Source of the DNA: Undaria pinnatifida | Lineage: Eukaryota; Sar; Phaeophyceae; Laminariales; Alariaceae | DNA length: 64,000 bases | Assembly: GCA_012845835.1 (NCBI GenBank) | Contig: JABAKD010000002.1 | Location: forward strand, 24,346,518 to 24,410,517 | Direction of reading: 5' to 3' | Part shown: positions 3,322-59,019 of the stretch, piece after piece | Position numbering within the stretch: position 1 is the first letter of the stretch | Layout of the letters: every line of letters starts with the position of its first letter | Notes under the pieces: model-generated | Told to the model about the DNA's origin: nothing | What the model saw: the letters and a program-made list of their open reading frames with translations, nothing else | Database searches by the model: none | Position numbers and translations under genes: made by a program

Positions 3322-3438
3322 ATAGAAAACTATATTGCATACCAGGTAGCAAACAAGAAACGAAAAGTTCAAGTCCGCACATACATCGACACGGAAAATC
3401 GACACGGCAACGGGAGGGTATCATCATATCATACATGC

Positions 3439-3745
3439 CGGTCGCCCTGGTGACGTATCAGGTTATCCTCGAGCCTGGTATAGGTCAGTATCGTGAGTTC
3501 GAGCCCCGCCGAGTGCACACTCGTTCAAATTCGTTGGGACTTTTTCTTGTGCACAAATTGACTTGCGGAAAGCGCGAGAGCGTCAGTTAGCAACACTCGA
3601 TGAAAAATCAACGAGCAGTGGGATTGCTGAACCCTATGCGCGATAAAAATTGAAGGCAAGAACCGGGGGGAAGAAGGGACGACACCTGTGACCACGGCTT
3701 GTCCAGAGGCTGGAAAGTAGAAGTATGAGAAAAAAGCAAAACAAA
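3439..3745 (+). mobile_element. tRNA-derived SINE (family S), plus copy
   Basis: Head with A-box-like TGGTGACGTATCAGG and B-box GAGTTCGAGCC about 45 bases later. The body contains GTGCACAAATTGACTTGCGG and CGCGATAAAAATTGAAGG, and the end (GTGACCACGGCTTGTCCAG, then AAAAAAGCAAAAC) is A-rich. Its heads face the 3,003-3,321 copy across a spacer of about 117 bp, giving a head-to-head inverted pair. Related bodies occur at 5.3, 23.5 and 48.8 kb. Confidence 0.7.
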
Positions 3746-5304
3746 ACATGCGTACGCGTTGTTGTTGTTGTCTCATATTAACTCTTATCAATAAATCTAG
3801 AGTCCGTGGTCACACAAAGGTGCTGGAGTCCTAGGAAGATCCGAAAATCCAAATATAATCAAAATTCGTCCGGGACATACTGCGCTTTCCCACCTAAAAC
3901 GCGCGATGCACCAAGGCGCACAACAAGTGAAATGATCCAACATAATAGTATGTGCAAACTGAAGTCACATGGCCGCGGGTATCCACTCAACTACAGCGTA
4001 GAATTCCCTGTTCCCACAACTAACTAACTCGCGGCTACAAACTACAATAGCGGTTGTTGTGTGGAGGGTGCTGTCAGAGTGAAGACCCGCGGGCATGCAG
4101 TGAAAAAAAGAGCAATCGAACCAAAAACCACCATACAAATACTCCGGAGTATCAATGATCGCCACGTCTTCCCGAGTTATCTGACAGGTTGCAGCGCAGC
4201 TACGACGCCCGTGCCTGAAAATTGCGGGGAATCGTTGCCGATGAAGGGGTTACAACTCTACCAACTCTACAAAAATCAGTGACGTACAAGTAACTTGTTG
4301 TACTACTGCCTCGTAAAAAAAACAGAAAAAAGATGATCGCTGCTCTCGTGATGGTGGTGTGCGTGCGGGTCGTGGGTCTCCGTGTGCCATCCTCCTGCTG
4401 CTGTGGTTCTCCATGGCCGCCTCATCACCTTAGCTCACTCGGTCCGCTCCTTCGCACGTGCTCTCCTCGTTGACACTCAATTCCACTCGGTTCCGTTCTC
4501 CCCCGTCCCAAAAAACAAAATGCTCCTCGCAGCTTGCGGTGCCTATCTGAAGAACAAAAATTCTCGTTCAGGGAGCGTTCGATCCGTCTTTTCCCCGCCC
4601 GTCGACGCTCAGTCGCCCTCCTCCTTCATCGTCGAATCTAGCCTCCTGCCGGCGCAGTTCCCTCCACGCAAACCGAGACTGCGCCGTAGTTTGGCTCGCG
4701 ATGGCGCCTGCCTCCGCACACGAGCATCCCGGTTAAGCATTGCTGCTCCGCCGCTACTGACTAAAAAGACGCGCGAATCGTAGGTGACCATGCATAACAC
4801 ACCATGTTCGACCCAACTCTACCGCCACGCCTAGGCCTCGCGGCCACACGCAACAGCAAGAAGGTATCACTCCTTGAGGGTGAGTCCGGCCTTACACCCG
4901 CCAGAAAGACCCCCCCCACTCGCTACAAGCCTGCTAGGGCATGCCTCGTAGCATGCCTTACCGAGGCGGCAAGGGGAACGAAGAGTACGTATCACATACA
5001 TACCAGGTATATCATAGATTCAGTATTATTCGAATTGAGGCGGCGTTAAAGGCAGCGAGGAGAGGATGATACAGGGTGCATGTAGAGTAGGTGAAGCAAA
5101 ACTACCCGTTTTTTCTCTCAGCGAAGAGAGATCCAAGGCATTCGATCCCCGCCTCAACCACGTAGTACTAAGTGGGAGTTGATCATGATGGGATGAGATA
5201 ATATAAATACGAATGAGTTTGTGTGTGTGTGGGGGGCGTTGATAGAAAAAGTCTCGGCTGCGAGAGCATGTACTATTGAAATAGGTATTATATAGACTAT
5301 GTAT
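3746..5304. other. Unassigned spacer
   Basis: No recognised element. A GC-rich open stretch lies at 4,382-4,783 (plus) with a competing minus frame, and another at 4,804-4,970 ends at a possible GTGAGT donor near 4,880. Neither shows a motif I know, so neither is called. A TACCAGGTA motif sits at 5,001-5,009. Confidence 0.35.
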
Positions 5305-5590
5305 GTCGCCCCTGGCGGTGGTCTAGTGGTTACCCTCGAATACTACTATTAATAGCTAGCGTTGGTCCTTGAGTTCGATTCCCACCGCGGTGAGATTTTG
5401 AGTTTATTTGCAAAAATGCAAGAAAAGAACCAACAACTAACTGCTGAGAATGCCTAGCATCGTGGGTAGGCACAATTCGACGCGAGTCGACGAGAGGGAA
5501 GAAAATATTTGATTCCAATTATTCTTCTCGCGATAAAAATGAAGGCACGTACCGTAGTTGGGAGGGGGGAGGAAAAGCCCTCCGGATCTG
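5305..5590 (+). mobile_element. tRNA-derived SINE (family S-like)
   Basis: Starts with a strong tRNA-like head: A-box TGGTCTAGTGGTTA, as in tRNA-Glu genes, and B-box GAGTTCGATTCCC. The 74-nt segment 5,317-5,390 even has complementary ends (GCGGTGG/CCACCGC), but the A-box is misplaced relative to that stem, so this is a derived head rather than a working tRNA. The tail carries CGCGATAAAAATGAAGGCA, shared with the 3.4-kb copy. Confidence 0.6.
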
Positions 5591-6404
5591 AGCTACTACT
5601 GGGAGGGAGGGCGAGCATAATTCGAGGATAATAAATGGGATGGAAAACATAAATGTACCTAATTGTCTCGTACATTCGTTGCATCCCCCACCCACATTCA
5701 TACATCCATTCATCTCTCTCTCTCATCGTGTACCAACGCTTGCTTCTTAATTATTACTAAGGGCATTAACCCAAAACGGGTATACCCGATCACTTTTCGA
5801 GCCAAAATCGGGTACAATCTAGAGCCAAGTCAAAAACGCACCCCCCACGGGCATACATTATTGTGCTTTTTCAACCATTTCACCCCAGTGACATCATTAG
5901 GGGGCATCCCGACCGGCGTTTCGTATGGGTTAGGGTTAGGGTTAGGGTTACGGTTAGGCTTAGTTCCATCCATGGTGAAAAATACAGCAAAGTAGGACAC
6001 CCGACTTTTCAGGCGTCCCTTTCGGATGTCGTTTTCGAGTCGACCGCTACCCGAAAAGGGAACCCAGAAATCGCATCTGGACATATTTGGTTTCCCGTGC
6101 GGGCAACAAGCAAAAGCGTGTAACACGCCGAGAACAGGGGTGGTGAGTGGTATATTATTTCGTAGCTGTATGTATGTAGTAGTATCAACCGCTTTGAGAC
6201 TTCAGCGTGAAAGTTGACGACGAAAATTGCCGATTACGGCACCGGCCACTGCTGATTGGCGATGATAAAACCGGTGTCGGAACGGCAACAATTCAAAGAC
6301 TCGTACGGGACGGGCGCAGCGTGCCTACTCGTACTGCTGCACGCTCACGCTACTGCCTGTCGTATTGATATTATCATACGGCAATAAAAAACAATATAAA
6401 TAGC
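5591..6404. other. Unassigned spacer with telomere-like tract
   Basis: Nothing coding is recognised. It contains a TTAGGG run at 5,927-5,962, listed separately. Confidence 0.4.
5927..5962 (+). repeat. Interstitial TTAGGG tract
   Basis: Four to five TTAGGG units, then degenerate TTACGG/TTAGGC units. It fits a TTAGGG telomere type in this genome. Confidence 0.8.
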
Positions 6405-6655
6405 ATTAACCCCCCTCCCCCTCCCTGCCCCGCCCCTTCCTTTTCAACCCCCGCCTCCCCCCCACCGGTTGTACGACTTACAGGATATACATGATAATAA
6501 ACTGATGCATTCCTTCCACAGCCGTCATATTGTGTTCCCCTCAAAACGGGTTTTATCACTTCCGCGCACAGAATAACCCCCCCCCCCCCCCCCTCCTTTT
6601 CAACCCCCCCCCCCGCCCCCCCCTGTCTCTGGAGCGGCCACACCAGAAATCAAAG
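6405..6655 (+). repeat. Module A fragment with poly-C tracts
   Basis: From 6,455 the sequence follows module A (CACCGGTTGTACGACTTACAGG, then CCCCTCAAAACGGG, each read as short words). It stops within the module and passes into C runs of more than 15 bases, where the next module begins. Confidence 0.6.
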
Positions 6656-6669
6656 TATCTCGTTGGTGC

Positions 6670-6912
6670 TGTCATCCATAATAAGCAAGAAAGTAGGCAC
6701 AAGGTGCCGAAGTCCGTCTTACGAGCGGTTCTTGGAAGGATGCAGCTCACCCTTCGTGCGACACCCCGAATATACTCCACGGCACTTCGCGCTTGGTGCT
6801 AGCAATGTCAATGTCTGCCTGGTTGGTGAAAACCCGACGTGCTTCGTCCCCCGGCATAGTAGTAGGGATGCGAGGGTCTAGGTTCATACGACTACGGCCA
6901 TGCACAAGCTGA
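6670..6912 (+). repeat. Module B copy
   Basis: About 240 bp with the words GAGCGGTTCTTGGAAGGATG, GCACTTCGCGCTTGGTGCTA, CTGCCTGGTTGGTGAAAACC and GATGCGAGGGTCTA. It recurs inverted at 53.85-54.05 kb and in shortened form at 59.02-59.17 kb. B is followed by a C run and module A, and the same order is seen (inverted) at 53.5-54.05 kb, so B and A behave as one composite element. Origin unknown. Confidence 0.7.
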
Positions 6913-7300
6913 GTACACTCCCACCCCCCCCCCCTAAAAACTCCACCCTCGACTCACCGGATATACGATTTACAGGACATTATTCATAATAGTCTATACT
7001 AGACATACATGAAAAACTGATGCATTTTCCTTCCACACACAGTTCTTCAGTAATATTTTGTCCCCCTAAAAAACGGGTTCTATAGTTTCCGCGCTCAGAT
7101 TGGTTAACATCACCCTGTTGACCCTGGTACAAGCTACATAGATAGTCTACACTGTGATTCTAACGGGGGTCGCCGGCCTAAATCCTTAATGAGGACACAC
7201 ACACCCAGTAACTAACCGCGATTGGGGTATCACACACAACTTGGAAATATGAGTTTCGACGAAATCTTCGATCTTACAGCTAGCTGGAGTGTGTTTTTAT
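6913..7300 (+). repeat. Module A copy following module B
   Basis: Begins with a C run, then the A words CTCACCGGATATACG, CCCTAAAAAACGGGTTCTAT, CACCCTGTTGACC, TCCTTAATGAGGACAC and GCTGGAGTGTGT. Confidence 0.75.
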
Positions 7301-9961
7301 CTTTACAACATACTTAGTCTACAAAACATGCATCAAGCATTCATCAGTGAGCAAGCAGCAGCATGGCATGTATCATCGGCGTACTCGTGCTGCTGCTGCT
7401 GCTGCTGCTCTGCTGTGTCCCGCTATCTACTGGCACACTCCTCGGGCCTCATCAACATAATAATGAGCCAATGGGATCGGATAGTATTATTACGAGTATT
7501 ATGGTGATTGTGGCGACTACCTGGTACGAGATAAGAGCCCCCCTTGTGAGTCTCCTCGCGGTCGCGATTGCAGCATCCCTTCGCAAAATTGAAACACAAA
7601 AAAGACAGCGGTATAGTCTAGACTATTAATCGTAGTACTCGACGGTCGTGCAGCTATTATAATATTGTGCTGCTGCTAGCTGCTGCTGTCGTCGAGGAAG
7701 AGGACAGCCGCCGTCTGCGATATGTCGTTGTTGATGCACGAGATTGACGGGGGCGAGGGGGAAGACAACCCTCCGCGCGTGAAGCGCACGCGACGTGTTA
7801 TCCCTCGCTCCGTCTACAAAGCTTCATCTGCGTGCGCTGAGATGCTGGTGCAGCGAACTCGTATGAGCACGTAGTCGAGGGATCGCCGTTCGTTGTTGTT
7901 GATTATTCGCAACCACAAATCTTCGGCTGTTGTTGTAGGTTGTCGATTCGATTCTGCCCTTCTGGTTCTAGACCCGAAAATCCATGCCAGGTACGCATCA
8001 TTTTCGGATTCTGATACATACTACCAGGGACAGCTATTTTAAGAAGTGGTACCTGGTAGACGAGAACGAGCCGAAAGGTTGTGCTCTCGGCTGAGAAACA
8101 TCATACTTGGTACATACATACGTGCAATCGAATAGCAACGGGCTTCGAGGTTCGTGCCGATTGCTGCAGAGACGCTGCGGAGGATGCGACGTTTGTATGT
8201 GCTTCGTGCCGATCTGTGAGGCGCTGCGGATGGATGCGGGTATCACATCGAGCGACTGGTACCAAAAGGTGCTCCCTTGGGTGTACGTACATGAACCGAT
8301 ACCTCACATTCATCGTGCTTGAACTACTACAGTACAACAGCAGCAGTTTCATGGCGAGAGTTCTTTCCGATAATCTTTCAAAACAGCAAGCAACAGCAGC
8401 AGCAACTGGACGGGCTGAAAATTACTCCTCTCCCGTACGTACATCCTTCCCGCTTGCCGCATACTGCATGCAGCAGCTGCTGCTTCTGCTGCTGCTGCTG
8501 CTGGTGATACACCAATTAATTGCTGTGCGCCCCCCCGACAACTCTGCATGCTCAGTGTTTGATAATCGACACGTCGTAAATAAAATACGTATTTTTGTCG
8601 TGCATTTTCTTCTTCATTTTAAGGCCGTACTTCCGTCGTTACTTGTTGCACCACCTGGAACCAGGGGTTCTCGTGTACATCTTCGAGCGCTGTTCATCTT
8701 CTGCGCGACCCTCGTGCGTCTTGGGACAACCCCCCCGTGCCGACTTAACTAATAATACAGCTACTACAACTGACTACTGCTGCCGTCTTAGCGAGGCGTA
8801 AATTGTTGCCAGTCGCCTCTTTTCACAGATTCGTCAACTATACGCTGCTGCGTTAAACTTGTTTTTTTCTCTACTCGTAATAGTACTGCTGTACAAGTAC
8901 GCACGTTGTTTGTGTTCTGTTCTTCTGTATGTTTCGCTACTATTAATATTGTTTGTCCGGAGTACATGTACAACAGGAGGAGGATCAAAAAGTCAGGTTT
9001 CATTGTTTTTTCGAAATCAATTTGTCTTCTGATGCTGCTCTCCTCATCGGCCATAGGGACTCGGTTGCATAGCCTCACGCCATTTAGAACCCCTCTCTGG
9101 TATTAACCATGCCCGTATGATAGCAAGCGCTTGTCGGTGTAATGGGATGTGCATCTGGTGTGAACCAAGTACGACAGCGCACGGTGTTGCTTGATGTTGT
9201 TCCACAACCAAAAGTAGGTTGTACGACGTACATACCCAAGGTGTATCTTGACAATGTGCCGGTATTTTGGTACCCACAAGATAACAATTACTTGTTCGTT
9301 GTCTTCCACAAACAGAACCAGAACAGCTAAAAAAAGGCTCTGCGTTCCCGCGCACCAAACAAAAATAGAGCTGTAGACTATACGGCGGTATTCACCACCC
9401 CGCTACCACCGGCGGCCCATCAGCGTGCATGATAACAATGACCAATGTCCGCATTGATTGCTTACTGTGGGCACCACTCGCCTCGCGGCTGCTCTGTGCG
9501 TGTAGGAGAGGCAGGGCTGAATTGTGCAGCGAGCTCTCGACCGCACACACACGGACTCTCATGCAGCTGCGGGTGCTTCGTGAGATTTCCAGCTTCTTCC
9601 CAAATGTTGTGTTTCCACCATCTCCGCTCTCTATTTAGGCTCTTTCGGAATGACAGGAGGATTAAAAATCTAAGGAACGGACCGGTCGTCATACTTTAGG
9701 TTCATAGGCGCACACACACCGTCCGTTGAGGTTTTGATTTTTGATGGCTTGCGTCCAAACACAAAACACAACAAACAACACACACAAGAAAACTGGAAAA
9801 TAACACCCCGGCGATTGATCAAGCGATCCCGCGCACAGCAGACAGACTCTTTCCTTCTCCATAGGAGTACACACACCCCATCATCCCCAACGCTCCACAC
9901 CACATCAGCCTGGACGCCGCACCGCACCGCACCGCACCGCAACACCTGGCCAAGCAGCAAG
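7301..9961. other. Gene-poor or intron-like stretch upstream of the zinc-cluster gene
   Basis: Contains CTG/CAG runs (7,382-7,412 and 8,466-8,502), a small GC3-rich open frame at 7,722-7,874, and open frames at 8,081-8,752 and 9,142-9,330 with no recognised family. TACCTGGTA motifs lie at 7,518 and 8,050. The last 200 bases before 9,962 are A/C-rich with five CGCAC-type pentamers (about 9,920-9,942) and look like a 5' leader of the downstream gene. Confidence 0.4.
7722..7874 (+). CDS. Possible 50-residue protein or first exon, unrecognised
   Basis: An ATG-to-stop frame of 50 residues. Third codon positions are clearly G/C-rich (about two thirds), unlike the surrounding CTG-repeat spacer. The peptide is acidic at the start (EIDGGEGED) and then strongly basic (RVKRTRRVIPR), reminiscent of a nuclear protein start, but I know no family match. 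No good splice donor is obvious at its end. It could be a chance frame. Confidence 0.2.
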   Translation: MSLLMHEIDGGEGEDNPPRVKRTRRVIPRSVYKASSACAEMLVQRTRMST

Positions 9962-10720
9962 ATGCGCAATTCATTCATCAACGACAGCAGCTCGGGGGGG
10001 AGGCAGCGCGGTGGAGTTTCCGAATCGTGGACTTACGGGAGTGCCCAAGAACTGTTCCAAGATGACCGCCTCAAGCCCGCGAAGATGCTTCGCTTGCTGC
10101 CGGCGACCATCCAGCTCCCGGAGACAGCTCCCGGTACTAGTCGCACGTTGCGGAAAAGCTGCGACAGCTGCGTGCGGCTGAAGCGCGCCTGCAACGGGGA
10201 GAGCCCCTGCCGACTCTGCGCTCGCATGGGAAAGTGTTGCTCCCGCAGCGCTAAAAAGCGAAGCGGCCCTCCAAAGGGCACCAAGTATCAACCCCGGAGG
10301 CAGCAGTCTCCGGAAGCCCTGGCAACTCACCAGCCCGACACCACCACCAGTGGCTCGAGTGGCTCGGCCGGATGCAGCGGCTCCGAGGCGGATCCGTCGG
10401 TCGGGGGCGGGCCTCACAAGGTCCCGAAGCTCCGCACGGGCGATGATGCAGCAGGTGCGGCGGCCTTTATTCGAAGGGTCGGGGGGGTCAGCAAGACGGG
10501 TTATCAGCAGCAACAGCAGCGGAGCCTGGGTCCGCCCCGCTCCTTGAATCCGGCTTCTTCTGCTGATTTGTGTGCCGAAAAGCCTGAGGATGACATCAGA
10601 GGGGAGAGAGAAGCGGTGGCGACCGAGGTGGACGATGGAGCTTTGTTGCTGCTACGGATGTTGAAGACCTTCCACCCTTCTTCAAGGAAGCTGGGATTCG
10701 CCACCAACGTTGAGACTACT
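9962..10720 (+). CDS. Zn(II)2Cys6 zinc-cluster transcription regulator, exon 1
   Basis: Residues 67-93 form a canonical zinc cluster, C-X2-C-X6-C-X5-C-X2-C-X6-C (Cys67, 70, 77, 83, 86, 93), with basic residues between the second and third cysteines (VRLKRA). It is followed by a basic linker (AKKRSGPPKGTKY). This domain binds two zinc ions and contacts DNA, and is known best from fungal GAL4-type regulators; it is also reported in stramenopiles. The rest of the exon is low-complexity (Ser/Thr/Gly, then a QQQQQ run near residue 182), as expected for linkers of nuclear regulators. I chose the ATG at 9,962 because the frame upstream to 9,734 translates an A/C-rich leader with repeated CGCAC. The frame runs to a clean donor, ACT|GTAAGT at 10,720/10,721, in phase 0. 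The effector or dimerisation region must lie in later exons. Family call firm; target genes unknown. Confidence 0.8.
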
Positions 10721-10851
10721 GTAAGTTGCCAACCCATCTAACCAACGTCGATTACCAACACGACATCCTCCTCAAATGAGCAACCCTATACTTCGCTGCC
10801 GGCTGCCTGCGGCATTTTGCCCAGTAGGCCTGTTGCTTTCTTCTGCTTCAG

Positions 10852-10965
10852 GCATCGCCGCACAACTCCACCATGAACTCATTTTTGCTACTCGTACCTG
10901 GTATTTGGTGTGTTTTACCAGTATTCTGCGCGATCTTTGACCCAAAACGACTAACGATTCGTTAA
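10852..10965 (+). CDS. Possible exon 2 of the zinc-cluster gene
   Basis: A pyrimidine-rich acceptor (TTGCTTTCTTCTGCTTCAG, ending 10,851) would give a 131-bp intron and continue the frame in phase 0 as ASPHNSTMNSFLLL and on to a stop at 10,965. The second half of this stretch contains a TACCTGGTA motif typical of spacer DNA, so the true exon may end earlier (near 10,893) at a GT and splice onward. Splice choice is inference. Confidence 0.35.
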   Translation, partial: ASPHNSTMNSFLLLVPGIWCVLPVFCAIFDPKRLTIR

Positions 10966-13853
10966 GGATTCATGCGCCACAACAGACAAGTAAGTGACGA
11001 GTTCACCAGGCGATATTATCACTAACAAAAAAAGCCACGAACTGCGAATGATGCCCTCGTATGGTTGATTATACATGCTCGTTTTCACGTGGACTGTGGA
11101 CTTCGATCTTGTTCAGACTTTTAGGTTCTGGAGCAGTCGTATACCATCCGCGCGTTGATGGTGCATTAGTCCGTACGTGGCGCCTGATTTTGTCGCCGAG
11201 CTGGACATGTGGAGCTGTCTGCGGCAGATCCACCCCCAGGTTGTGCAATATACAAATTATTTGTTCGACTTTACGTCGTCGTGTGCGGTTGATTTTGATG
11301 CTATGTTTCCCCCCGATTATTTGTTGATCCTAAAAGGCGGAGCAGAGAGCGTGTCTGGCACCCCCTTCTTGTTGTATGCTATGATGTTAATGTACTTCTC
11401 ATGATGTGATGTGAATGCGATGTGAATACGTACGTCCTCTCGTGTGTGCCGTTCTTTTTGGGTGTTGTGACGCAAACCACTGACTGCACCGAGGCTCGAC
11501 TACACCGAAGAACACATACATCTACATCGCACAAGTCAGTCAATCCTCGAGAGCATTGATTGATTGGGCGATAATCACGGTTTCGTGTGAAGACACTTGG
11601 CGCATACCGTATACAGTAATTAATAACCACTGTTTTGCTTCCTGCTCGCCGGGTGTGGCAAACTTTGGGCACTCAACAATGCATACATACGAAGACTAGT
11701 CTAATACCTGGTAAAATATCCAAGTAAGTCTGGTGGCGTCTAAGCCGGTCTATGCAGCGGTGCTTCCACGCCGCGATAAGCACCTTCACCAAGTAAGTGT
11801 TGTTTTTTTCCCATACTCACTCGTAAAAAGCAATACTACGGCTTCCACTTGCTGCAGCTGTTTGGGTTATTACTGTTGGTTGTCGTGTGCCTGCAAGCAG
11901 TACAACAGCAGTAGTAGATTATTAGAGCAGGTGCATGCGAGTTCCTCCGTTCCTCCAGTGATATGTAAAATAGTGTTCCAGGTCACCAAATAAACTCGCA
12001 CCACCTGCCTCGTATTTTGAGTAGACTCATACGTGGTACCGGTAGTTTCTTACCTTGCTACCCAGCACTTCCTCCGGCATTTATTTATCAAAGTTGGGTC
12101 AAACGCAAATCCGCAGCGGTAGCGGTAGCTGACCGCTGACTGACGTTGTTTGCTCTGGCTTTCTCTTCTGCGGCACGCTGCCGAGCATCCTCACTGTCAC
12201 ACCAAACGGTCACATACTTCTGAGCATTATTTTCAATATTCTTCCCCAAGCGAGAGATTCAGTTTTGTAGTGTTTTCTGCTCTTCTTCTTGCAATGCTTG
12301 TACGCCCTCGGCTCCAATCCTTGACTACGCCATGCTTTTCGTTAAAAATAAGCTCCAGACTCGTCGACCCTCACCCCCCTTTCAAGACTATGGCCATGCA
12401 TGATACCCCGCTGCTCCGTCTTGACAGAGATTCGTGGTCAATGGTGAAATTGCCATTGTAGGGCGAGCAGCAAATGACCCCCCCCCCCCCCATCGTCGAT
12501 ACAGCCAGTACGTGCTTCCCTGGTATTTGCCAGGTATCGCGCAATGACGTTAGCTCTTCCGTCGCTCGTCGACTCTCGTCGATGTGTAGTCTACACTGAT
12601 AAGAAGTACTTTCCGGTACGAGGGCGCTAGTGTTGTATAGTGTATATCCCGCCGTGGAGACGACTCCTCATGGAGACATCGCCGTAGCTGCCTTGAAAGA
12701 GGATTTCCTGCATTGTCCTCGTTTTTGTAAGACATAACGCAAGATTTAATTTTCCGGGCTCAAGTCAGTCGACACTGCGGTGGATATTAGGGGACCCGCA
12801 TATCGCGGAGGGAGGCCGAGACATATCTTACGGGTGAATACAGTTTAGCAGTCGGGATACCGAGGGCGTGGCAGACTTTTCCTCACGGCAAGCTTCACGT
12901 CCTGAACCACAGAAGCAATACTGACCGCACAAGGCCATCGCTCAAAAAACGTATGCACCAAAATACCGGGCTTTTTTACTGCTGTGAGTTCGACCAAACA
13001 AGTTGCTTTTTAAAAAAAAATTGTAGCGGGTTCCGATGTGTACTCACTTCACTGCCTGTCTTTTATAACTAATTTTTAAGGACGTCAGCCGTGAGTTCGA
13101 CGAATTTCAGGTCAATACTCATCTTTGCAAGCTGCGTTGTTGGTACTCGTAATATACTATATGGGTGATTTTTGTTACAACCCCCACAAGCAGAAACACC
13201 CTTCCTTGTAGCTAAGAGATTCGAGCCAAAGTCCTTAGCTGTGTTAAGGGCAGGCGTTCGAGAAGACCACAACTAAGCCATATCACGGGGGTGATCGGAT
13301 ATTTGTGCTGCTGCATCTGTTACTTTTTACATTTAGAACAAGTACAGGGAAGTCAACGAGTTCGGCTAAACAAAATGGTCGTATTTTGCGTGTAAGTAAG
13401 TCCGGACAACTGCTGTCTGACCTAAGAAGGGGAATACTCGTATATCAGTCCTTGTATGAACAAGCCGCTTGCAAAACGGGTTATTTCGGAAGCCGATGCT
13501 ACAACCCACGTCAAGTAATTTTGTTGAAGCCTCGTGTGACCTGTCATATTCCTGTCACATTCGTGCCGTCGCGACTAACGACAAAACCCGAAGCTCACAT
13601 AGACACTTTGTTGACACTTCGGCATGTATGCGCGTGCTGTTTTTGTGTTGAAGCAGTATTTTCGCCTTCTAACATCTTCCTGTTGACCCCACTGGCACTA
13701 AGCATGGACTCTATTCCCTTCACGAATACATGTAGAGCACGCGCGACTGATGTATCACCCAGTCCACAAAGCTAAGGACAGAGCAGCTTGACTGGACTAC
13801 AGTAGTCTCGCCTGGTCATTTTCAAAGCACACGTATCTGGTATTTTTGAAGCG
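10966..13853. other. Probable intronic or intergenic stretch
   Basis: No element recognised. It contains the open frame at 11,159-11,404 and another at 13,305-13,775 without known motifs, a C13 run at 12,479-12,491 and a TACCTGGTA at 11,705. It could be introns of one long gene running from 9,962 to about 14,585, or spacer between two genes. Confidence 0.35.
11159..11404 (+). CDS. Unrecognised open frame, possible internal exon
   Basis: Reads as a plausible globular segment (DFVAELDMWSCLRQIHPQVV, then a Tyr/Phe-rich part with CAVDFDAMFPPDYLLILKG). There is no ATG at its start, consistent with an internal exon rather than a whole gene. It sits 440 bp after the zinc-cluster exon on the same strand and might belong to it. 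No family recognised. Confidence 0.2.
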   Translation, partial: WCISPYVAPDFVAELDMWSCLRQIHPQVVQYTNYLFDFTSSCAVDFDAMFPPDYLLILKGGAESVSGTPFLLYAMMLMYFS

Positions 13854-15035: not shown

Positions 15036-16574
15036 GCGGAGTGGAGTGGGATGGGCCGGGGTGGGCTGGGGTGCGGTGCCGTTATTTCCCTGCATAGCGT
15101 AACTTTGTGTCGGCAGAACATGCCAGGATATTTGTATGACATTTGGCAGAGAGAGCTCTGCGAAGCGATAGAGGTTCGTGCTATATTAGTTTACAGTGTC
15201 GAGGTGTGCAGGGGCGTTCCGATTGTTGAGGGTGTAGATGTGATGTGCACATATCCTGAATTGTACCAGTCGCAGTGTGTCTCTGATATCCTCCGGCAGG
15301 ATGATACAGATAAGAATCGTGCTCATCATGAAGAAATTTGGGGTCTAAACGAAAGGCTTAGTAGCCGTGGGTATGTGGTAGGCGTGTTTTAGAGCTACTT
15401 GTGGGGATATTTTATGTACAAGCCGCAAGGCCGGTGTGTTTGTTTGCAACGAGGTACGAATGTATCATCGTAAGCGTGTTTGGCACAGAAGTTGTTACGA
15501 GGTGCGGAGAGATTTTTCGCCGTGCAAGGGCTAAGGTTTTACGGTGAGTACCATTTTAGGCTGCTGCAGTAGGGAAGGAGGTGGGCGTAAGGGAAATTTA
15601 GTTTAGCGTTTAGTGCCAGGGGTTTCAGTCGTTGGCCGCGAGTTTAGGCCAACAACCTGAATACTTCGTATCGCTCGATTTTGTCGATCTTTCAACACCT
15701 GGTATATGTTTACCAATTCCTCACCCGCGTAAGCTCTACTCCCCCCCCTTCTTTTATTTCGGGGGCCTGTGGATAGAGCGTGGGCATGGTTCCATGGATT
15801 CAGCATTGCTTCGTTTTTGTGTAATGACACACTTTGTTACGCGCGGAATGACTAGCTGTATTCATTTATCGAGCGGCGGTGGTTCTCTCGAACACAACCC
15901 CACTTAAATTTGCCTGGGCGGATGTCCCGTTTAAATTGGGTCTGGTCTGTAATATTTCCCTGCCGAGTATCAGAGGCCGTACTTGTCTTCGTTGTTCACG
16001 ATGTGACATGTCATCCGGTCACGTCTTCGGCACGTTGAGACACAGAATAACTGGATCGATCGGTGTCGTAATAGCCTGACGACAGCATCTTTTATAGGTC
16101 TGGTCAGATCCATACGTTGAGTTTGCCATACTTTCGTGTCATTGCAGACTCGTTATGTTGGCATGGATCTGGTGCTCCGATATGCCGTCCGGAGTAACAG
16201 ACCATCCGGCAGTTTTTCAGACATACTTGGTTTTATTGCACCCGCCCGCTTGCAAGCCCCCCGGCAGCCTGGTAACTTAATCAGTGGGCCCGCTATGACG
16301 GGAGCCTCCGCACAGGGTTTTACCCATACTTCGAAACATACCTGGTAGCGTGCGTCCGTGCATCATGACTTGAGTATTCTTGGCAGCCCTTTATCCTTGT
16401 ATCATGGTAGGACACGTGTAGCACCTTACGCACGTGTGCCGGTGGGCATTAACATGCCGAATCACGGGCTTGCCCAGTTTTTCTCACGGTTGCTCCTCTA
16501 CGGCAGTGTGACACCAGAAATGTACCAATCGTATGGAAACTGGCGCCAGAGAAAACGTTGTTGATGAGTGTTGG
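15036..16574. other. Unassigned spacer
   Basis: No recognised gene. Open frames at 15,051-15,392, 15,632-15,907 and 16,136-16,348 (plus) show no known motif. A TACCTGGTA lies at 16,339. Confidence 0.35.
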
Positions 16575-16860: not shown

Positions 16861-16885
16861 GTATAACCGCAACAAAAAAATATGA

Positions 16886-28946: not shown

Positions 28947-29080
28947 CCGGTAGCGTGTAACACACAGCGCATGAACATCCCCTGCGGTGGAGCACAAGAC
29001 TGGTGATTTTGCTGGAATACTACGCAAGAAACTTGGAACCAAACTTGAGTCAAGTCGAACGGCACTGGAACAACGTGCAC

Positions 29081-44650: not shown

Positions 44651-47428
44651 GCTCCGTCTCAGTGACAGTGGCTTCCTCGGGCGTGATGTCCGGAATTTGC
44701 GCTTGTTGGCGCTCAGTCTCCGTGATAGTAGCCTCTTTAGGCGTGTTCTTTCGATCTGTTAGTGTGCACTCCTTTTGGGCCGCAACATATGTCCATACCA
44801 TGCGGATACCCTTTTTCGTTGGGGCGTTACCGTCGTGGAGTGCTCCATGGCGATGCCGGAGTTGGCGCAGAATTCTTGGAGCACTTTCAAGGAGCAGTCG
44901 CCTCGATTGGCGTCGTTGCTTGCCTGTGCCGCAGAAACTGAAGCAGGCGTTGATGATGTATCAGTCGTGCCGCCCAGGGTGCGATGAAATACCTCGTAAG
45001 AACATACGCCCTAGTCCTCTGGGTGTTGGGTGAGCGGAAGCAACGTGTTGCTGTCGAAATGCAAGTGGGGTTTTCCCGTCTCGAGGATAGTGCTTACCCC
45101 TGATCGCATTGCTTTGATGGAGGAAAGGACGTTGCGTCCCGGTTCAGGTACGAACATGGTCGAGATGCGAACAGGAACGCGCTTGCCAGCCTGGTCGATG
45201 ATGTACCCCCAGATGGTGCCTGTTGCTGTTGCAAATACCTTCTTGTTTCCGTTGGTCACGATGGTTTTCGGCTCATTTATCTTCTTGTAATCCCCCCTGC
45301 TTTTTCGCAGTCTTGGAATGATTCATATGCTCCTCGTCTATCAAGTGGTCCGACGCGCCGCTGTCCACAATAATCGTGGACCTGTCGCTGTTGAGGTGAA
45401 AACTCCTGTTGCCGCTGCCAGCCAGCAGCCCTGTAAACGCGAATGCCTTTTCGAAACCGTCATCGAAGTTGAGAGGCGGCTTCTCGTCGTCGTTGAAGGG
45501 GCGTGTGCTCGCGCCCTGCAGAGGCTGTGTGACCTCATCTACTCTGCGGTGGGCGTGGCGCTCCTTGCTTGTAGCATTCCGTGTCGACGTGAGCGGTAGT
45601 CTTGTGTACAGAACACCACTTGTGCTCACTTCCAACGTTGGATGCTGCCCTGCCCCTTGAAGATTATTTGTTCTTCTGCTTGTCGTGGGTGTCAGTAGAC
45701 TTGTTGTCGTTGTCGTCCTTCCTTCTCTAGCAGTTGCGGACGTAGTGCCTTTAATTTCCACAATGACTGCAAGTCGATGCCGTAGTCATGGCTACGCCAC
45801 GACCAGCGATCTTAGTGTCACTGTTGCACGAAAGATCGTCCAAGTATAGATGGCGCATCGTGCTTTGGATCTGATCGATGTCGAAAGTGGGGTCTCGGTA
45901 CATCACCATCTCGATGTCCTTGTATTCCGCCATGAACCTTTAAACTCATATGTTCTTCAATCTGCGGTCAGAAATCTTCTAGCCCATTTTCTTGAGCTCA
46001 GAGCGCGAGCATCTTTTCCGTAAAATTAGAGTCCGGGTCTTTCCCATGCTTCATACTGGAGTTGACGAGCTTGTCCATTTTCACCCGGATCACTTCGTCA
46101 GCGACCTTGTTGTACTTAGCAACAAGCTCTTGCATTGCTTTCTGTCCGTCGCCGGTCATCCCAGTCTCATCCTCGTGCTTGAGTACAAGCACAGATGCTG
46201 GTTTCTCCGTTAGTAGGTAGAGTATGGCGTACAGGTCTTGGTTCGCTCTTTCATAAGCTAAAATTTCTTGTGCGAGTGCTGTCTGTGATGCTTGTGCTCC
46301 AGGTGGTGCTGGTGAAGATCCTGTATCGGCCGTTGCTCCGGTCGGTCGAGGATGCCCTTCGATGAGGTTATCGATATCACGCCTAGATACTCCGATCACA
46401 GCAGCTAATCGTGTATGCCATTCTCGAAAATCGCCTGGGTTTCGTCCATCGAACATTCTCAAACCTTTCTTTGATGAGGTGAGTAATTGAAGTGCTGGTG
46501 TTGCCATCTCTCATGATGATGAGTAGTATGTCCCAGGTAGCAGTTCACTCAGATGTCTTGTTTGATACCGTATTGTACTACAGTGTATCCAGTAGTGTCT
46601 ATTCACGTTAGATACGTAAACAACTACCGTTCAGGGGTGCTGGTGTAGAAATTCGGAGGCGTTATGGAGATTTCCGAAATTCTAAAAAATACAGCCGTGC
46701 GGATCAGTACTGCTGCTGGGTGCTCGCTTGCACTGGTCGCCTTGATGATAAGAATCTCCTTTAACAGACATCTACTCTACTGCCGGAAAGTGCTCTCGGT
46801 ACAGCTGGTGCTCGAAGTTGGCGAATCCTTTCTGGAAAGTTACGCCTCTGGCCCGCACTCAACGAGGTTCGTTGGGCTCGTACAGCTAACTCGAATTTTG
46901 GTCCGAGTTGTCGGTTTGTCGGAGTCTGTCACGACCATTACACGCGAAGTTCCCTTGAATTAGAAGTCAGAGCTCTACCAGCAGACAGTAGCTTGTACCG
47001 TTGAGGGCTGCCTCTATACCGTTGTTGCTCAGAATGACTCACTTAACCTCAAGGGTTGTAAAATTGAGTCGAGGCAACGTACGGCAGTTGTTTGCTTGCG
47101 TATACCGAGATTTGTTTTTGGTGTCCCCGGCTAGCCAAGGGTCCCGGCAGAGCGAGGATTGGTTGATTTGGTACAACCTGCGATGTTGTACCGTTCTCCC
47201 CCTGGGTACCTCGATCACAGCTCTGATTAACTGTGTAGGGCCATCTAGATATGCTCACTCACTCACCACGCGTTTCCATCGCAGTACCCGTAGTCCTCCG
47301 TCCGATGCTTGAATTTCTTCTCGTCGTACTCGTGAAGCTCCCGTAAACAGCAGTAGATTTCTTGATCAAGCCCGTCCTCAGTAGTTATCTTGATTCTTGA
47401 TGCCGCTCCTCGCGTTTACGCAAAACGA

Positions 47429-47439
47429 GGCTCATAACC
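47429..47439 (-). other. Primer-binding site of Copia-D (GGTTATGAGCC)
   Basis: Immediately inside the 5' LTR (which begins at 47,440 in window coordinates). Same 11 bases as in Copia-C; complementary to the initiator Met-tRNA anticodon arm. Confidence 0.75.
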
Positions 47440-48276
47440 TATTAAAACCTCTTATATATGATATGGCACGTGGCGTGTATCAGCTCGTAGCTGGTGTACG
47501 CTCGTAGGCTCGCATTCGGACGACCCGATGAAGACGCAGCCTACATGGATTTTAGAAACAAACGCAGGCCACGGTTAGGTGAGCCTGTAGGAGAAGAGCC
47601 TCAAACACAGCACAAAACAGAAGATGATGTTGGTCGGCGACCTCAAGCCGATGTTGATTACTGACTTGCTGTGCTCAGCAGATTAAAGCTGATGGTGAGC
47701 AAGGTTCGGGTGTGGAGATCTGATGTGGAGATGTGGAGTGACCACATGAGGGCGATACGCGTGTGCGCCACTCGCAGCTCAAAGACATAATACCCTCAGA
47801 ATCCGGTACGAACAAAAAACAAAAAACAAGCTATGACCCCAACGCGAGACCCTACAGCCTTGTTGTTTAAACAGCTCGTATCTCAGGGTTTGTAATCATG
47901 ACTCTATGTAGCCTATCTTGTTACTTTAGAAACATTTAGTTAGTGGACGTACGACCCTATATGCTGCCGGTTCCGGAGGGATACTAAAGAATGTCCCTTT
48001 CAATGTACCAGTACGTACTACATGTACCAGGTATCGGATATGACTTAGCCTGTAAACTGCTGTGTATCATATATGTCCAAGATATTGCTGCTGAGACTCT
48101 GCTGTGTATCATATATCTAAGACTACTGCTAAGACTTCTGCTTGCTACGTACTGCATCGATAACCGGCAACTACCAGACTGGAAACTGTCTGTCGTACTA
48201 GCAACTTGCAATGTATACCAGAGGACTTTTAAGAGTTATCAAGTAACAACATGATGGTTACTAAAAACAAGTATAA
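47440..48276 (-). repeat. 5' LTR of Copia-D
   Basis: Partner of 41,815-42,639. Confidence 0.85.
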
Positions 48277-48281
48277 TCTTT

Positions 48282-49017
48282 CTCTTCTTACGTGTTGTTT
48301 CGTCCGTGCAACAGTTATCTGTCCCTCTTCAGCACGTATGCTGTTCTTGCAGCCTTTCTGGTCGTATTGCATCGCATTCTTCAGAACTCCTGTCGGCTTT
48401 CGGCTTTATTTTGTCTTTTTTGGTAGATAATATTTATTCATTTCATGGTCAGGATTGTTTGGTTATTTATTTGTTATTTCGTTGTGCTCACACATACCCT
48501 GTACGCTAGCGTTTCCCGTGTCTTTACCTTGACTAATTGCGGTTGTTTTTGGTTTTCTGTCTCAAGCCTGTGACCACATAATTTATATCTCTAGGATGAA
48601 GAATCGCCACGGACACTGGGTGTACCAATGTCGTTGGGTAGAAAGAAACGGTTTAATGTTGAAACAACACACACAGCCAGCGTCCTCCCGGTGGTTCAAT
48701 AGCGTGTGCCCCTTAACTATTGAGGCCGATATCGTAGGCTTGAACCCCCCAAAGGGACACCTCTTTCTTTCGAATTGGCAGGCCGAAGGTGCGACAGTGC
48801 GAGTTAGCGTAATTCGATGCAAATCGACGAGCATAGAAGGCTGGAGCGTGGGAATGCAGAACCCGAATACGAGGCGCCTTCACCGGCTTTGTCCCACAAA
48901 TCGTACCAGGTACTAGATAAAGCACCAAGTATTTTTCACTTTATTATGGAGGGTTTTAACATGTTTTTTTGTGTTTTTTTTGTGCTTTTTGTAGTCAAAT
49001 CGCGAGAGGGCGTCGAC
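48282..49017. other. Spacer with a SINE body fragment
   Basis: About 48,770-48,880 shares GGCAGGCCGAAGGTGCGA and ATTCGATGCAAATCGACGAG with the SINE-like segment at 23.5 kb. The rest is unassigned. Confidence 0.45.
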
Positions 49018-49066
49018 CCACCCTAACCCTAACCCTAACCCTAACCCAAACCCAAACCCTAAGCCA
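49018..49066 (-). repeat. Interstitial CCCTAA tract
   Basis: About four exact CCCTAA units followed by CCCAAA variants. The best of the three interstitial telomeric tracts. Confidence 0.85.
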
Positions 49067-51019
49067 GGCTAGGGCTCCGACCCGAGCGCGGCTTCGCCGC
49101 GCGTTTCGTTTTGGAAAAACTGATGAAAAATGTGCGGACCACCTCGAACATTGAAATATATGTGGTACTTAAGTCTTTATGTGGTATGAATTGTGGGGTG
49201 AGAACACCGCAAAGGCTACTCCTGCCGAATACACGTACTGGGCGGGCGAAGAGAAGGCATATGCGGGGCCGGCTTGTCCATAAAATCGCTGAGGGTACAC
49301 CTCTTACGACGTGAGCTGGAAAGAAAACACAATGAAAAAAAAGTAAAATAAAAAGTAAGGAAAAAAAAGGCTTCGTTATTACTAGCGTTCCACATTTCAC
49401 ACCAGCAGTTGGTATCACAATGCCTTCACGGGGGTGTCGACAAGGACGCAGTTTCGAATCTCGATGCCGATATACTGCACCAGGCATGTAGACTTCTTCA
49501 GAAAAAAACTACAGAATACGTGGAGCTCTAGAAACAGACGCTTGCTCTTGTGTCGCAAACATGACAACAATACCTGGTATCCCTGTCGATTGTCTATGGC
49601 GTAAGAAGACGCTCGACGCGCGACTCTCCTCACTGGGATCTACCAACCGGCACGATCCAAAGGACCCGCTGTTTCTACGAGGCGTGTGTTATAAAAAGCT
49701 TACCCCGACCCACAGTTTGTAGATAGAAAATACATCTATATCATGGATGCTTTGTAGCCCGGTTTTAGCCCGGTTTGAAACCAGGTACTGTAATCTACCA
49801 GGTAGGTAGGAGATGCTTTCGTGTTCCCAAAAAGCCGAAAAGCTTCCTGCCAGATACCAGGTTGTAGAGAAACACACAACACCCTATTTTTACGTTTGAA
49901 AAAATCCCCATGCTTTAGATGTATTTTCCCGACTGCACATAATCGGCACGGACACTGCTGGTAGAATGAACGGCTTAAATAATAAATAAAACACTATTAA
50001 TACTACTATTAGACTAGTAGTCTAGTGTAATAGCTAATAAACACATACGGTACATACCAGGTACCAAATTGACACTAAATAAATGAAATAAAATCTGAGA
50101 GTTTCAAAGACTACTTACAGTAGTACCGGGTACTTCACAAGGGCTCACCGTTTTTGTACACATAATCTTGAGCTGATCCGGCTATCTTGCCATCATCATC
50201 AGCAGGTAATAAACGTTTTTTGGGCAAGGACGGCCTGGCATGCCTCCACATCAGCATGTAGGCATGAGGGTCCAGCGAGGCTCAAACCGGGACTGGGGAC
50301 TGTGGGTTGCCACAGATCGGTATCTACAGATCGGGTCTATGATGATTCCAGTGACCTGTTGAACTTTTTGTTGGCCTATCATCTTGCGAATAGATCATCG
50401 GCGTAGGTCCGATCCTGTCACCCAGGGTCCGATCCTGCCTCTGGTCCAGATTTTCTTTAGAAGCGCACCCTCGTTTTAGGGGCGATTTACTCGTACTCGA
50501 ATTTAGTGTGTGAACATTCTTCCAGCATCATATTACCACCGTGGTACAATCTAAACAGGTCCTCACACGTAGCACAGCAACCAGAAGAGGGGCCCACAAA
50601 ACCACTCAATATTGCATATGGAGCACCTCAGGTTGGGCCACCCTTCGCCAGACTGAAGCCGGGCATTGCCCGCACCTGGGATGCCGCACCAGGTCTGTCC
50701 GTGACTGATCGATTGCGGTCGCAAACAGCGTTACCCGTCTGCCGTTGCGTTTTGCCGTGCTGCCTGCAGTTCAGTTTCACTATATGTTGTCTCCGATAGA
50801 TTCAATAATTGAAGAGGGATGAAATCCCCTGTAGATTTGCAGGCTTGTTTTTTTCAGGTTTACGTGTTGCCTGATACTCGGGGACATCTTACGACCCTGC
50901 CTTGCGACGCCCCTGCGGCGAGGGCAGACGCCGTTGAGTCGCCTTCTTGCCACCCCGCTGTGCGCTTGTTTCTCCAATGAAGGCGCCTAGCAAAAACGTG
51001 CAGCGGTCAAGGGGCAGAC
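49067..51019. other. Unassigned spacer rich in TACCWGGTA motifs
   Basis: No recognised gene. Exact motifs at 49,571, 49,796 and 50,055, with near-matches around 49,783, 49,853 and 50,123. A piece at 49,265-49,340 (GGCTTGTCCATAAAATCGCT) resembles the SINE-like end at 23.69 kb. An open frame at 50,506-50,799 has no known motif. Confidence 0.4.
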
Positions 51020-51690: not shown

Positions 51691-53520
51691 TGTTCATATG
51701 TTCATACTGCTGTGCACGTTTAGAATAACGGTGGACGGCTGTTGGTTTAGTCAGGCCGACCCGTATGTAGCCCATCATACCTGGTACGTAATAGCGGCGA
51801 TAACCCGTATTAGGCGGCGGGGCTCCCACACCCCACACACTGTTGTCTGCAGCTCCATCCAGTGTCCGCAATCGGTTTTATTTTTTGAGGTGTTTTCTTA
51901 CGCGTGGCCTACTGTACAGCCTACTGTACAGCCTACTGTACATCTACAGCCCATATTGTTATTGGCTAAAGGCCCCACGAACATGAACAAACACAACCAG
52001 AGGCATCCTATTTGCGCAGGATTTTTCTCACACATATTCCCATCCCTACCCAATGCGCCACCTGCCGGGCGCTATTATTCGACGTTTAACCCGTGCATTG
52101 GGACACCCGGCGCGCCGCACCGCATGTCTGGGCGATTAAGACCGAGATTTGCCTGCACTGGCAAACCGGATCGTGTCCATATGGAGGTGAGTCGTGCGGT
52201 ATATAGACTATATAGATCGGATTATCACACACAGTCACAGCTTGCAAAGATGAGTTTCGACAGAATCTTCGATCTCACAGCTGGAGTGTACGTATTTTCA
52301 TTTTTTATAATATTAAATATAGATCGGAGTATCACACACAGCTTGCAAATAGTATATCCCATTTTTCAGAAAACTCTGTTTAATACGGAGTATCAGTTTC
52401 GACAAAATATTGGATCTCACAGCTGGAGTGTACTTTGATTTTTATAATATAGACTAGACTATACTTCGAAATATGTAACAATACCATGTTTAGAACAAAA
52501 TAACGTGCTCGTTCGGGTATAGACTATAGGTTTAGACCAGCATGTTTCCGTTGAGTGCACACTTGCATTCGCAAATAGTTGGATATTTCATAGTGTTCAG
52601 GCCTGCGTCGTGCGTTCCGGTGGTGGGCGGCGGGTGCTTGCTGGTCATGCAGAAGTTGCAGACCGGATAGTCACCAAGGACACGCTACCCATGGGCGGAG
52701 GAGACCCACCCGTACGTAGTTCAGAGCTGCGACGAACAGTGGGGTGGGCGGCGGTTAAATGATCGACTTCTGCAAAAAGCATCAGGAGGATCGTGGTACA
52801 TGCAATGGTCTCTACGTAACATGTCGGCTTACATGTTGTGTGAGGAATGTGGTATTTACTGAAGGTAGACTGTATATCTTGGAACGACGCGATAGATCAA
52901 AGTCGATATTAATATTAAGAAGCAATAGGCGGACCAGGAACAACGGTACTAAAGTCGACTTTCTAAATCCCATTCTCAAGCTCGCGGCGTACACAACATG
53001 TGGCCTTCATCTTGCATGTTTCCTTCCTCTCAGCAAGGCGTCAAAGCAAAGCTTCGCGCAGGCCGGCCCACTGGCTGCAGGTGGCCTCACAGTCCTTGCC
53101 AAGGGACTACTGTTGATAGCACTACTACTGTGTACTGCTGCTACTGTGTGAGTAATATCGTGAGCTCAGACTGCGTACCAACATCATACCTTGTGACCCT
53201 TTTTACTATTTTCAGTATACTGCCCTTGGTGCGATTGACGGAAGCCTCTTCCCCTGCTGTCCCCGTTGTTATCCGCCAAGCCGGTCACTGTGCATTCGCA
53301 CATGGGCTTGGCGAGCTGAGGCATGCAACGCTCGACGACGAAACGTGAGTGCTATGTAAATAGTATGTTACAGACAGTAAGGAGGCAGCGTCCACACAAG
53401 TATTGCACAGAACAAACCTGGATGTTGCATGAAGCTCTAGTCTACAGGAGTAGAGCCACTATTTACTGATCGGCGTATACTTTAAATATATGTAGTCTAT
53501 ATTGTGAGAAGTCAAAATGC
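51691..53520. other. Spacer with truncated module A ends
   Basis: Two short plus-strand A ends, about 52,205-52,290 and 52,320-52,440, each finishing in CAGCTGGAGTGTA. Also a 12-bp tandem (CCTACTGTACAG, three units, 51,908-51,943) and a TACCTGGTA at 51,778. Open frames at 51,668-52,438 and 52,759-53,151 have no known motif; the first runs through the A pieces and is unlikely to be real. Confidence 0.45.
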
Positions 53521-53820
53521 CCTACGTACGGCTGTGAGATCGAAGATTTCGTCGAAACTCGTGTTTGCAAGCTGTGCGTGATACTCTGATCGCGCGTAAT
53601 ACTGTGTGTGTCCTCATTAGGCATATATGTCGGCGATCCCCTTGAGAACTAGCTTGTACCAAGGTCAAGAGGGTGATATTATTCAATATGTGCACGGAAA
53701 CTATAAAACCCGTTGTTGAGGGGGACAAAATCTGACGGCTGTGGATGCACCAGTTTATCATGTGTAATCTGTAGTCGTATGACCGGTAAGGGGAGGGCGG
53801 GGTTTTAAGGGGGGCGGCGG
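53521..53820 (-). repeat. Module A copy
   Basis: Near-full copy in reverse (GGCTGTGAGATCGAAGATTT to GGGGAGGGCGGGG), followed by a G run and module B, in mirror image of 6.67-7.30 kb. Confidence 0.75.
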
Positions 53821-53844
53821 GGGGGGGGTACTCGATATTCGTGC

Positions 53845-54045
53845 ATGGTCGTAGTCGTATGACCATAGGGTATAGACCCTCGCATCTCTACAATGCCGGG
53901 TCGGAGCATGTCGCGTTTTCACCGACCAGGCAGACATTGCTTGCATCAAGCGCGAAGCGCCGTAAGGTGTTCGGCGAGTCGCAAGAAGGGTAAGCTGCAT
54001 CCTACTAAGAACCGCTCGTTCGTGAGGCAGACTTGCATATGAATG
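53845..54045 (-). repeat. Module B copy
   Basis: Reverse complement of 6,670-6,912 with shared AAGCGCGAAGCGCCG and AAGAACCGCTCG ends. Confirms the composite B plus A layout. Confidence 0.7.
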
Positions 54046-57600: not shown

Positions 57601-58096
57601 ACATCACCAGTTCATTTTTTTCACTCTCTCTGCTGACGACGCAGCAGCAGCGCTCCTTCGTGACAGCCACAGGCGGTGCTTCGGTGTGTATGTGTGTACT
57701 TCTGTATGTGTGAGTGGAGTGTGTTGTCACAGGTGATCGGCACGCAAAACGATCGAGAAGAGTGATGGACCATTATTTTAAATCAGCCGCTCAGCCTTTT
57801 CGCCGCAAAATCAGTAGGTATACAACAGTACAGCAGCACCGGCAGTCGTGCTCCAGGCTCTTGCCTACGTGCCAGTTGTATGTGTGTGGTTGGTGCACAG
57901 CAGCGGGAGGCGATCAAACCCCGACAGCGTGTGCACGGGACTATCGAAGCCGAATCTACGAGGGGTCAAGGTACTGTAGAAGCTTGGGTGTCATAAGGAC
58001 GACAAGAAACCGAAGGAAGGGTGCTAACAAGAGACAAATGAACTGCGCCCTTAGAGAAGGACAAACGGACAACAAGTATGGTTGTGATCTCATGCC
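54641..58096. other. Unassigned spacer
   Basis: No recognised gene. Open frames at 55,745-55,972 and 56,354-56,683 (plus), 56,238-56,612 (minus) and 57,714-58,139 (plus) carry no motif I know. A purine-rich tract lies at 55,140-55,510. Confidence 0.35.
55140..55510 (+). repeat. A-rich purine tract (CGAAAA-like low complexity)
   Basis: About 370 bp in which the plus strand is overwhelmingly A and G, with recurring ACGAAAA and GGGGAA words and very little T. Diffuse, not a clean tandem repeat. Confidence 0.7.
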
Positions 58097-58165
58097 GCAG
58101 CAGAGAGGCCTCATTGGTCCCACACTATATACGAGTTAAAGCGTCGGCGAAATGTTGCAGCAGTA
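58097..58165 (+). repeat. Direct repeat, copy 1
   Basis: 69 bp starting GCAGCAGAGAGGCCTCATTG; pairs with 58,486-58,561. Contains TATATACGAG where copy 2 has a 7-bp longer form. Confidence 0.85.
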
Positions 58166-58485
58166 ATCTTGGAGCAAGACCCCGGGGACGGAAGAAGGCC
58201 GTCCCCCGGGTGGAAGAAAAGCCTGATAGTTGTACATAAAAAGCAGGACGATCCCACTTGCATCGTCGGCTCCCGTGCAGCAGCTAGAGATAGTAGGAAG
58301 CGGTTAGGTGAAACAGACCATCCCGCCCGCCCATCATTGTGCGCGAGACACGCCGACAACGACATCAGTTTTATTTTGTAGTGTTTATTTTACCGGGTCA
58401 ACTACTCAATGCGACGAGGTGCCGCGTTGATTACCATCGAATCAACGCGGGGGTAGTAGCCCTGGGTGAGAGTCTCCGGCTGATC

Positions 58486-58561
58486 GCAGCAGAGAGGCCT
58501 CATTGATCCCAAAGTATATACCTGATACGAGTTAAAGCTTCAGCGAAATGTTACAGCAGTA
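58486..58561 (+). repeat. Direct repeat, copy 2, with 7-bp extra block
   Basis: 76 bp. Aligns to copy 1 without gaps except for an extra CCTGATA after TATATA, producing TATACCTGATACG. Confidence 0.85.
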
Positions 58562-59019
58562 CACTAATACTGGTTTTCTTCTACTTTCTAGGAACGTTTA
58601 TGAGTGATAAACTTTGAAGCCCATGTTGCGCATTGTCGGACGGCAAACATAATACCTGGTAACAGCTATAATAGAAATCGTAAGTAAGCGCATTTCGGCT
58701 AGTACTAAGTGCGCCACTGCAGGGGTTGTCTTTTTATGCCCCGACCGTAGTAGAATCTGATGGAAAGGTGATAAGAACATGGTTTACGAGCACGACGCGC
58801 GTTCTTCAGTCAACGGTTGAGAGTTGATGTGGTCACTCAACATGCGCTAAACAAACAGAGGCCAGCTGCAGTATGTAGCGGTAGTGAGCTTGGCAGCACG
58901 AGTGCCGCTAGCTGAATTGAAGTAGGGCATTGTACCACGTATGAGCCTCGGTGCTGAGGGATACATTCACGATCATATCATGCATTTACAATGATGTGTC
59001 CGCTACGTCAATACCCCCC
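58562..59019. other. Unassigned spacer
   Basis: Nothing recognised. A TACCTGGTA lies at 58,653. Confidence 0.4.

Follow-up and report, generated by a model that had tools for sequence, protein, structure and literature searches.

The described systems closest to the short word studied here are the excision footprints of Tc1/mariner transposons and the HIP1 palindrome of cyanobacteria. In the excerpted passages of the papers cited throughout this text, Tc1/mariner excision proceeds by a staggered cut and repair of the overhangs (PMC7827188), Sleeping Beauty leaves the consensus footprints TACAGTA and TACTGTA, a net insertion of 5 bp (PMC4378557), and ZB, a Tc1/mariner element studied in cells, leaves footprints of zero to three bp (PMC7913693). 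Among brown algae, Ectocarpus carries TcMar-N1 with TcMar-2 and almost 12,000 Mariner-Tc1 copies (PMC12477816), an example of very abundant Mariner-Tc1 miniature inverted-repeat transposable elements (MITEs) in a possibly related lineage. The word in question is TACCWGGTA (W, A or T), found in a 64-kb stretch of contig JABAKD010000002.1 of Undaria pinnatifida; this whole stretch is called the window below. Like Tc1/mariner (IS630-Tc1-mariner) footprints, TACCWGGTA has TA at both ends and is an odd palindrome with a W centre, but it has five inner bases where the Sleeping Beauty footprint has three. It also resembles HIP1 (GCGATCGC) in being one exact short palindrome present in great excess (PMC4390886), whereas HIP1 is an even palindrome, prokaryotic and linked to methyltransferases, and its gain has been modelled by point mutation.

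TACCWGGTA occurs 16 times in the window, whereas 100 dinucleotide shuffles gave a mean of 0.48 (maximum 3) and a second-order Markov model likewise predicts 0.48. Two of the sites occupy the same position in two long terminal repeat (LTR) copies, leaving 15 that are independent, and the roughly 30-fold over-representation reported by a first-pass annotation of this DNA is borne out by either count. With LTR-element and satellite regions dropped (42,039 bases kept), 14 sites are present against 0.27 expected from the Markov model, and TACCWGGTA is the most deviant 9-mer, homopolymers and CAG repeats aside. The two halves are rigidly spaced: TACC and GGTA separated by one base occur 17 times (0.97 expected), all but one with a W centre, while every other spacer from 0 to 24 bases gives between 0 and 4 occurrences. 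TACCSGGTA (S, C or G) is present once in the window (0.45 expected). The nine-base word, as first annotated, and its one-base spacing are thus real, but the "ambiguous centre" is only a choice of strand. An odd palindrome that reads A on one strand reads T on the other, so the even split on the + strand (8 A, 8 T) adds no evidence; the informative property of the centre is that it is W rather than S.

The sites read TACCAGGTA at 3340–3348, 5001–5009, 26656–26664, 42393–42401, 48904–48912, 49796–49804 and 50055–50063, and TACCTGGTA at 7518–7526, 8050–8058, 10895–10903, 11705–11713, 16339–16347, 49571–49579, 51778–51786 and 58653–58661. The site at 42393 lies in one LTR copy of the second of two LTR elements, and its counterpart in the other copy (48025–48033) is the same site and not independent of it. 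The site at 3340 lies in the spacer (3321–3438) separating two facing copies that resemble a short interspersed nuclear element (SINE). No copy of the word occurs in the first LTR element (28401–35593), the internal part of the second or the satellite blocks at 38600–41500 and 58900–64000. At the density of the remaining DNA, the probability of finding no site in the 15.2 kb of the first LTR element and satellites is about 0.006, and their lack of sites is as old scars would predict.

The clearest indication of how such a word may arise comes from paralogous copies with and without it. Each of the 42 window sites with at most one mismatch was collapsed to TA and the result searched against the window; a real paralogue spanning the site was found for four loci (five sites with both LTR copies). 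At 58519–58527, the sequence TACCTGATA, one mismatch from TACCWGGTA, is a 7-bp TA-duplicating insertion: the segment that holds it (58485–58561, + strand) has a paralogue at 58096–58165 (+ strand) with a plain TA in its place. In its filled form the segment aligns at 83% identity with a 7-bp gap, whereas the collapsed form aligns at 91% without a gap over 70 bp, and the score rises from 83.3 to 100 bits. The motif is present in both copies of the LTR pair, which is therefore uninformative. A 23-base match for the site at 48904 (E 0.65) was discarded as chance.

Insertions distinguishing repeat copies were collected from alignments with E ≤ 1e-4, satellites excluded, and rows with more than 3 mismatches in the 10 flanking columns were dropped. 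The 63 insertion rows that resulted are not mutually independent, and some represent tandem slippage. TA is duplicated in 11 of them, compared with 1.4–2.0% for random segments, and it leads among the duplicated dinucleotides when each is scaled to its own frequency. Insertions of 7 bp were found at four distinct loci (five rows), three of which duplicate TA (17010, 53869 and 58518). The first, TA-CAGTG-TA at 17010–17016, lies in a dispersed repeat and is visible only against the copy near 53.65 kb. This repeat family is several hundred bases long, with copies at 198–617, 6720–7312, 16877–17247, 24600–24941 and 53488–54019 that differ by several indels, some of them duplicating TA. One copy carries a 13-bp insertion at 7135–7149, with TA duplicated and TAGTCTA at 7143–7149; alignment to the copy near 17.1 kb shows the insertion cleanly, but alignments to three other copies place the gap differently.

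TACCWGGTA is accompanied by shorter words of the same build, counted in the 42 kb that remain once LTR elements and satellites are removed. The highest-ranking odd palindromes there were TAWTA at length 5 (129 versus 58.7 expected, 32 tested), TAGWCTA at length 7 (22 versus 2.63, 128 tested) and TACCWGGTA itself at length 9 (512 tested); the TAWTA count may be inflated by AT-rich simple repeats. TACWGTA, the Sleeping Beauty-type footprint, occurs 13 times against 5.63 expected. GAC/GTC (22), TAA/TTA (17) and CAG/CTG (13) are the commonest triplets among 166 occurrences of TA-N3-TA, and CCAGG/CCTGG, with 14 occurrences, is the commonest inner five among 202 of TA-N5-TA. TAGWCTA is present 25 times in the whole window (3.96 expected), sometimes as overlapping doubles, compared with only five TAGSCTA; examples are at 5293, 7143, 7614, 7619, 50010, 50018, 52450 and 52455, and another at 11697 adjoins the TACCWGGTA site at 11705. 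In one dispersed-repeat copy TAGWCTA lies within or at the edge of insertions at about 6981–7004 and at 7135–7149; of these two, a clean TA duplication is seen only for the latter, and against only one of four copies. At 52450 the word is present in both paralogous copies. The spacing between TA dinucleotides is itself not specific, since distances of 7 (1.50 times expected) and 5 (1.23) are joined by 3 (1.57) and 6 (1.48).

We propose, with about even confidence, that TACCWGGTA is the scar of a family of TA-specific cut-and-paste DNA transposons or MITEs that acted in a Tc1/mariner-like manner. On insertion the element would duplicate TA. On excision a transposase would cut with a 5-nt stagger, so that each inverted repeat would leave its terminal five bases, CCAGG or CCTGG, behind as a 3′ overhang; pairing of these overhangs over CC/GG, with a single central A:A or T:T mismatch, followed by repair would then yield TA-CCWGG-TA. 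The element with its ends, the 5-nt stagger, and a common mode of origin for the exact sites and the 58519 insertion are all deductions.

A number of observations weigh against this proposal. The sole clear empty site belongs to a one-mismatch variant, and no empty paralogue exists in the window for any exact site, so that the contrast between TA and TACCWGGTA foreseen in the first-pass annotation appears, among window paralogues, in one clean case and in none for the exact word. Among the remaining loci, the site at 18305 (CACCTGGTA) is ambiguous because it adjoins a variable spacer (107 bits collapsed versus 99.6), the alignment at 59065 (TACCTGGTC) is better with the site kept, and so is a partial satellite match at 41127 (46.4 versus 38.3 bits). 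Dinucleotides other than TA are also duplicated in the 63 insertion rows (AA 10, CA 9, AC 9, AG 8, AT 7), and some of the TA-duplicating rows reflect plain tandem slippage. A search among the 25 left ends (TACCWGG) and 32 right ends (CCWGGTA) in the window yielded no element bounded by TA-CCWGG, and six-frame Pfam scans of 1–15.0, 15.0–28.0 and 48.0–59.0 kb gave no transposase domain; these scans of 1–28 and 48–59 kb returned no Pfam domain at all, whereas two + frames of 25–40 kb, serving as a positive control, gave copia reverse transcriptase and integrase. Imprecise products are not clearly raised (TACCTA 12 versus 22 expected, TACCGGTA 1 versus 0.77, TACCAGTA 5 versus 1.98). All 16 sites have five inner bases, which lies outside the range of 2–4 bp given for Tc1/mariner scars in the excerpt of PMC7913693. 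Finally, one-mismatch sites cluster around full sites: 6 of the 26 in the whole window lie within 100 bp of one (1.2 expected, p 0.0012), as do 6 of the 17 outside LTR elements and satellites (1.15 expected, p 0.001). Clustering was tried at five distances; in the latter set it fell short of significance at 50 bp (p 0.11) and gave p 0.02 at 400 bp. Membership in Tc1/mariner is not claimed, given that neither the element nor its ends nor its transposase was found and that the scar length falls outside the quoted range.

The elements with CCWGG ends and flanking TA that the first-pass annotation predicted are thus missing from the window. The only strong inverted pair, TACCAGG...CCTGGTA at 3279–3480, was rejected as a MITE: its arms lie inside the facing copies at 3009–3320 and 3439–3735 (83% alike), whose tRNA-like boxes and T-rich and A-rich outer ends, seen by eye, are more simply explained by an inverted SINE pair. 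Inverted SINE-like pairs of this kind are present at 3009–3735, 18053–18574 and 36647–37275, with units that face each other and central spacers that differ. The tRNA-like box sequences were recognised by eye in these units; ARAGORN and Rfam scans were negative.

The near-match clustering fits binding sites, although a transposon that re-inserts locally might produce it too. The word might be the target of a homodimeric DNA-binding protein that recognises TACC/GGTA half-sites one base apart, with sites selected for regulatory or architectural roles in homotypic clusters, an alternative already raised in the first-pass annotation and one that we regard as possible but rather unlikely. Its spacing is rigid and symmetric, and the first LTR element and satellites are avoided. 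One-mismatch neighbours number 26 against about 11.9 expected (about twofold by hand sum, Poisson P about 3e-4), and their excess leans to the outer two positions on each side (16 versus about 5.9) compared with the inner five (10 versus about 6.1, also hand sums). Clusters extend over 7985–8112, where the full site at 8050 has one-mismatch neighbours at 7985, 8022 and 8104, and over 49779–50132, where the site at 49796 has neighbours at 49779 and 49855 and that at 50055 has one at 50124, with TAGWCTA at 50010 and 50018. Full sites themselves do not pair, however: with the second LTR copy set aside, none lie within 200 bp of each other (0.66 expected). Nor are the flanking bases clearly constrained, as palindromic matching beyond the nine bases is at chance (49 matches versus 47.3 in shuffles, p 0.41). 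R before and Y after the word was counted by hand in 22 of 30 symmetrised positions, a preference that was set aside because other positions vary equally and the flanks match palindromically no more often than by chance; the AT content near sites (0.577 within 10 bases, 0.529 within 100) was likewise not used as evidence. Known genes seem scarce around the sites, given the lack of Pfam domains across 1–28 and 48–59 kb. A binding protein also leaves unexplained the exact TA in the neighbouring copy of 58519 and the excess of other TA..W..TA words.

Another proposal from the first-pass annotation, a self-spreading or repair-maintained mini-palindrome in which biased repair or methylation converts near-matches, with an outcome like that of HIP1, seems improbable. 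It would account for an excess that is large for the exact word and only mild for near-matches, for near-matches close to full sites and for scattered sites with unrelated flanks, and for HIP1 a model with biased repair has been put forward (PMC4390886). In the excerpted account, however, HIP1 is gained by point mutation and not by a 7-bp insertion at TA (PMC4390886); the word is missing from the first LTR element and satellites, and HIP1 is described for cyanobacteria whereas the window looks eukaryotic. That the sites are fragments of a larger dispersed repeat, or an artefact of composition, we consider very unlikely. The window is repeat-rich and 2 of the 16 sites share one LTR position, but self-alignment revealed no flank common to any of the others, so a common larger repeat was rejected, and the Markov and shuffle controls both give about 0.5. 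What tips the balance towards footprints is the 58519 insertion together with the companion TA..W..TA words. The footprint explanation offered by the first-pass annotation therefore gains from the 58519 pair, the TAGWCTA and TACWGTA excess and the TA-duplicating insertions, and loses from the lack of a CCWGG-ended element in the window; the dimeric binding site gains from the near-match clustering and is still the less favoured of the two.

The window looks eukaryotic, with a copia element, a second LTR-bounded element, inverted SINE-like pairs and interstitial TTAGGG. The first LTR element (28401–35593) has LTR copies that are 98% identical and matches copia integrase and reverse transcriptase in Pfam. 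The second (41828–48262), with LTR copies 94% identical, is copia-like by eye and gave no Pfam match in the single frame scanned. The arrays at 58900–64000 and 38600–41500 are long and degenerate, built on CCATGGGT and often with an 11-bp periodicity; CCCATGGG occurs 37 times in the window (2.35 expected). A tandem array at 23095–23498 consists of 2.7 copies of a 150-bp unit that are 99% alike. An open frame at 9674–10738 (355 aa) contains by eye a CX2CX6CX5CX2CX6C motif, which we take to resemble a Zn2Cys6 cluster; it has no Pfam match at E 0.01. TTAGGG-type telomere repeats lie at 5927–5963 and 49020–49062, and Ectocarpus telomeres are likewise TTAGGG (PMC11541908). A LINE-like (long interspersed nuclear element-like) protein from the window had no relatives in viral contigs, and the copia reverse transcriptase had no match in prokaryote contigs and two weak viral loci, neither with TACCWGGTA. 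SINE-derived DNA patterns gave no match in prokaryote contigs and one 22-base match in viral contigs, on a phage-like contig of 67% GC with nothing further similar. The short repeat strings and protein words of the window had no match in open-licence paper texts, and no description of TACCWGGTA or of a 5-nt TA footprint was found among the open-licence papers searched, where text matches, in two papers, were to ACCWGGT only.

If the sites are bound by a protein, they point to a very abundant dimeric factor. If they are footprints, past transposon excisions can still be counted in the genome after the elements themselves have vanished, and the scar reveals the stagger length of the transposase. 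In a more speculative extension, which we think has little chance of being correct in full, the scars would owe their uniformity to a precise TA-specific system, as opposed to ordinary sloppy transposition, whose transposase cuts with a 5-nt stagger and may have been domesticated by the host, and which left identical 7-bp scars roughly once per 4 kb. On that view TAGWCTA and TACWGTA would come from sister families whose stagger is 3 nt, and k-mer excess alone might reveal several generations of vanished elements. A 5-nt stagger, if true, would extend what is known of how TA-specific elements work.

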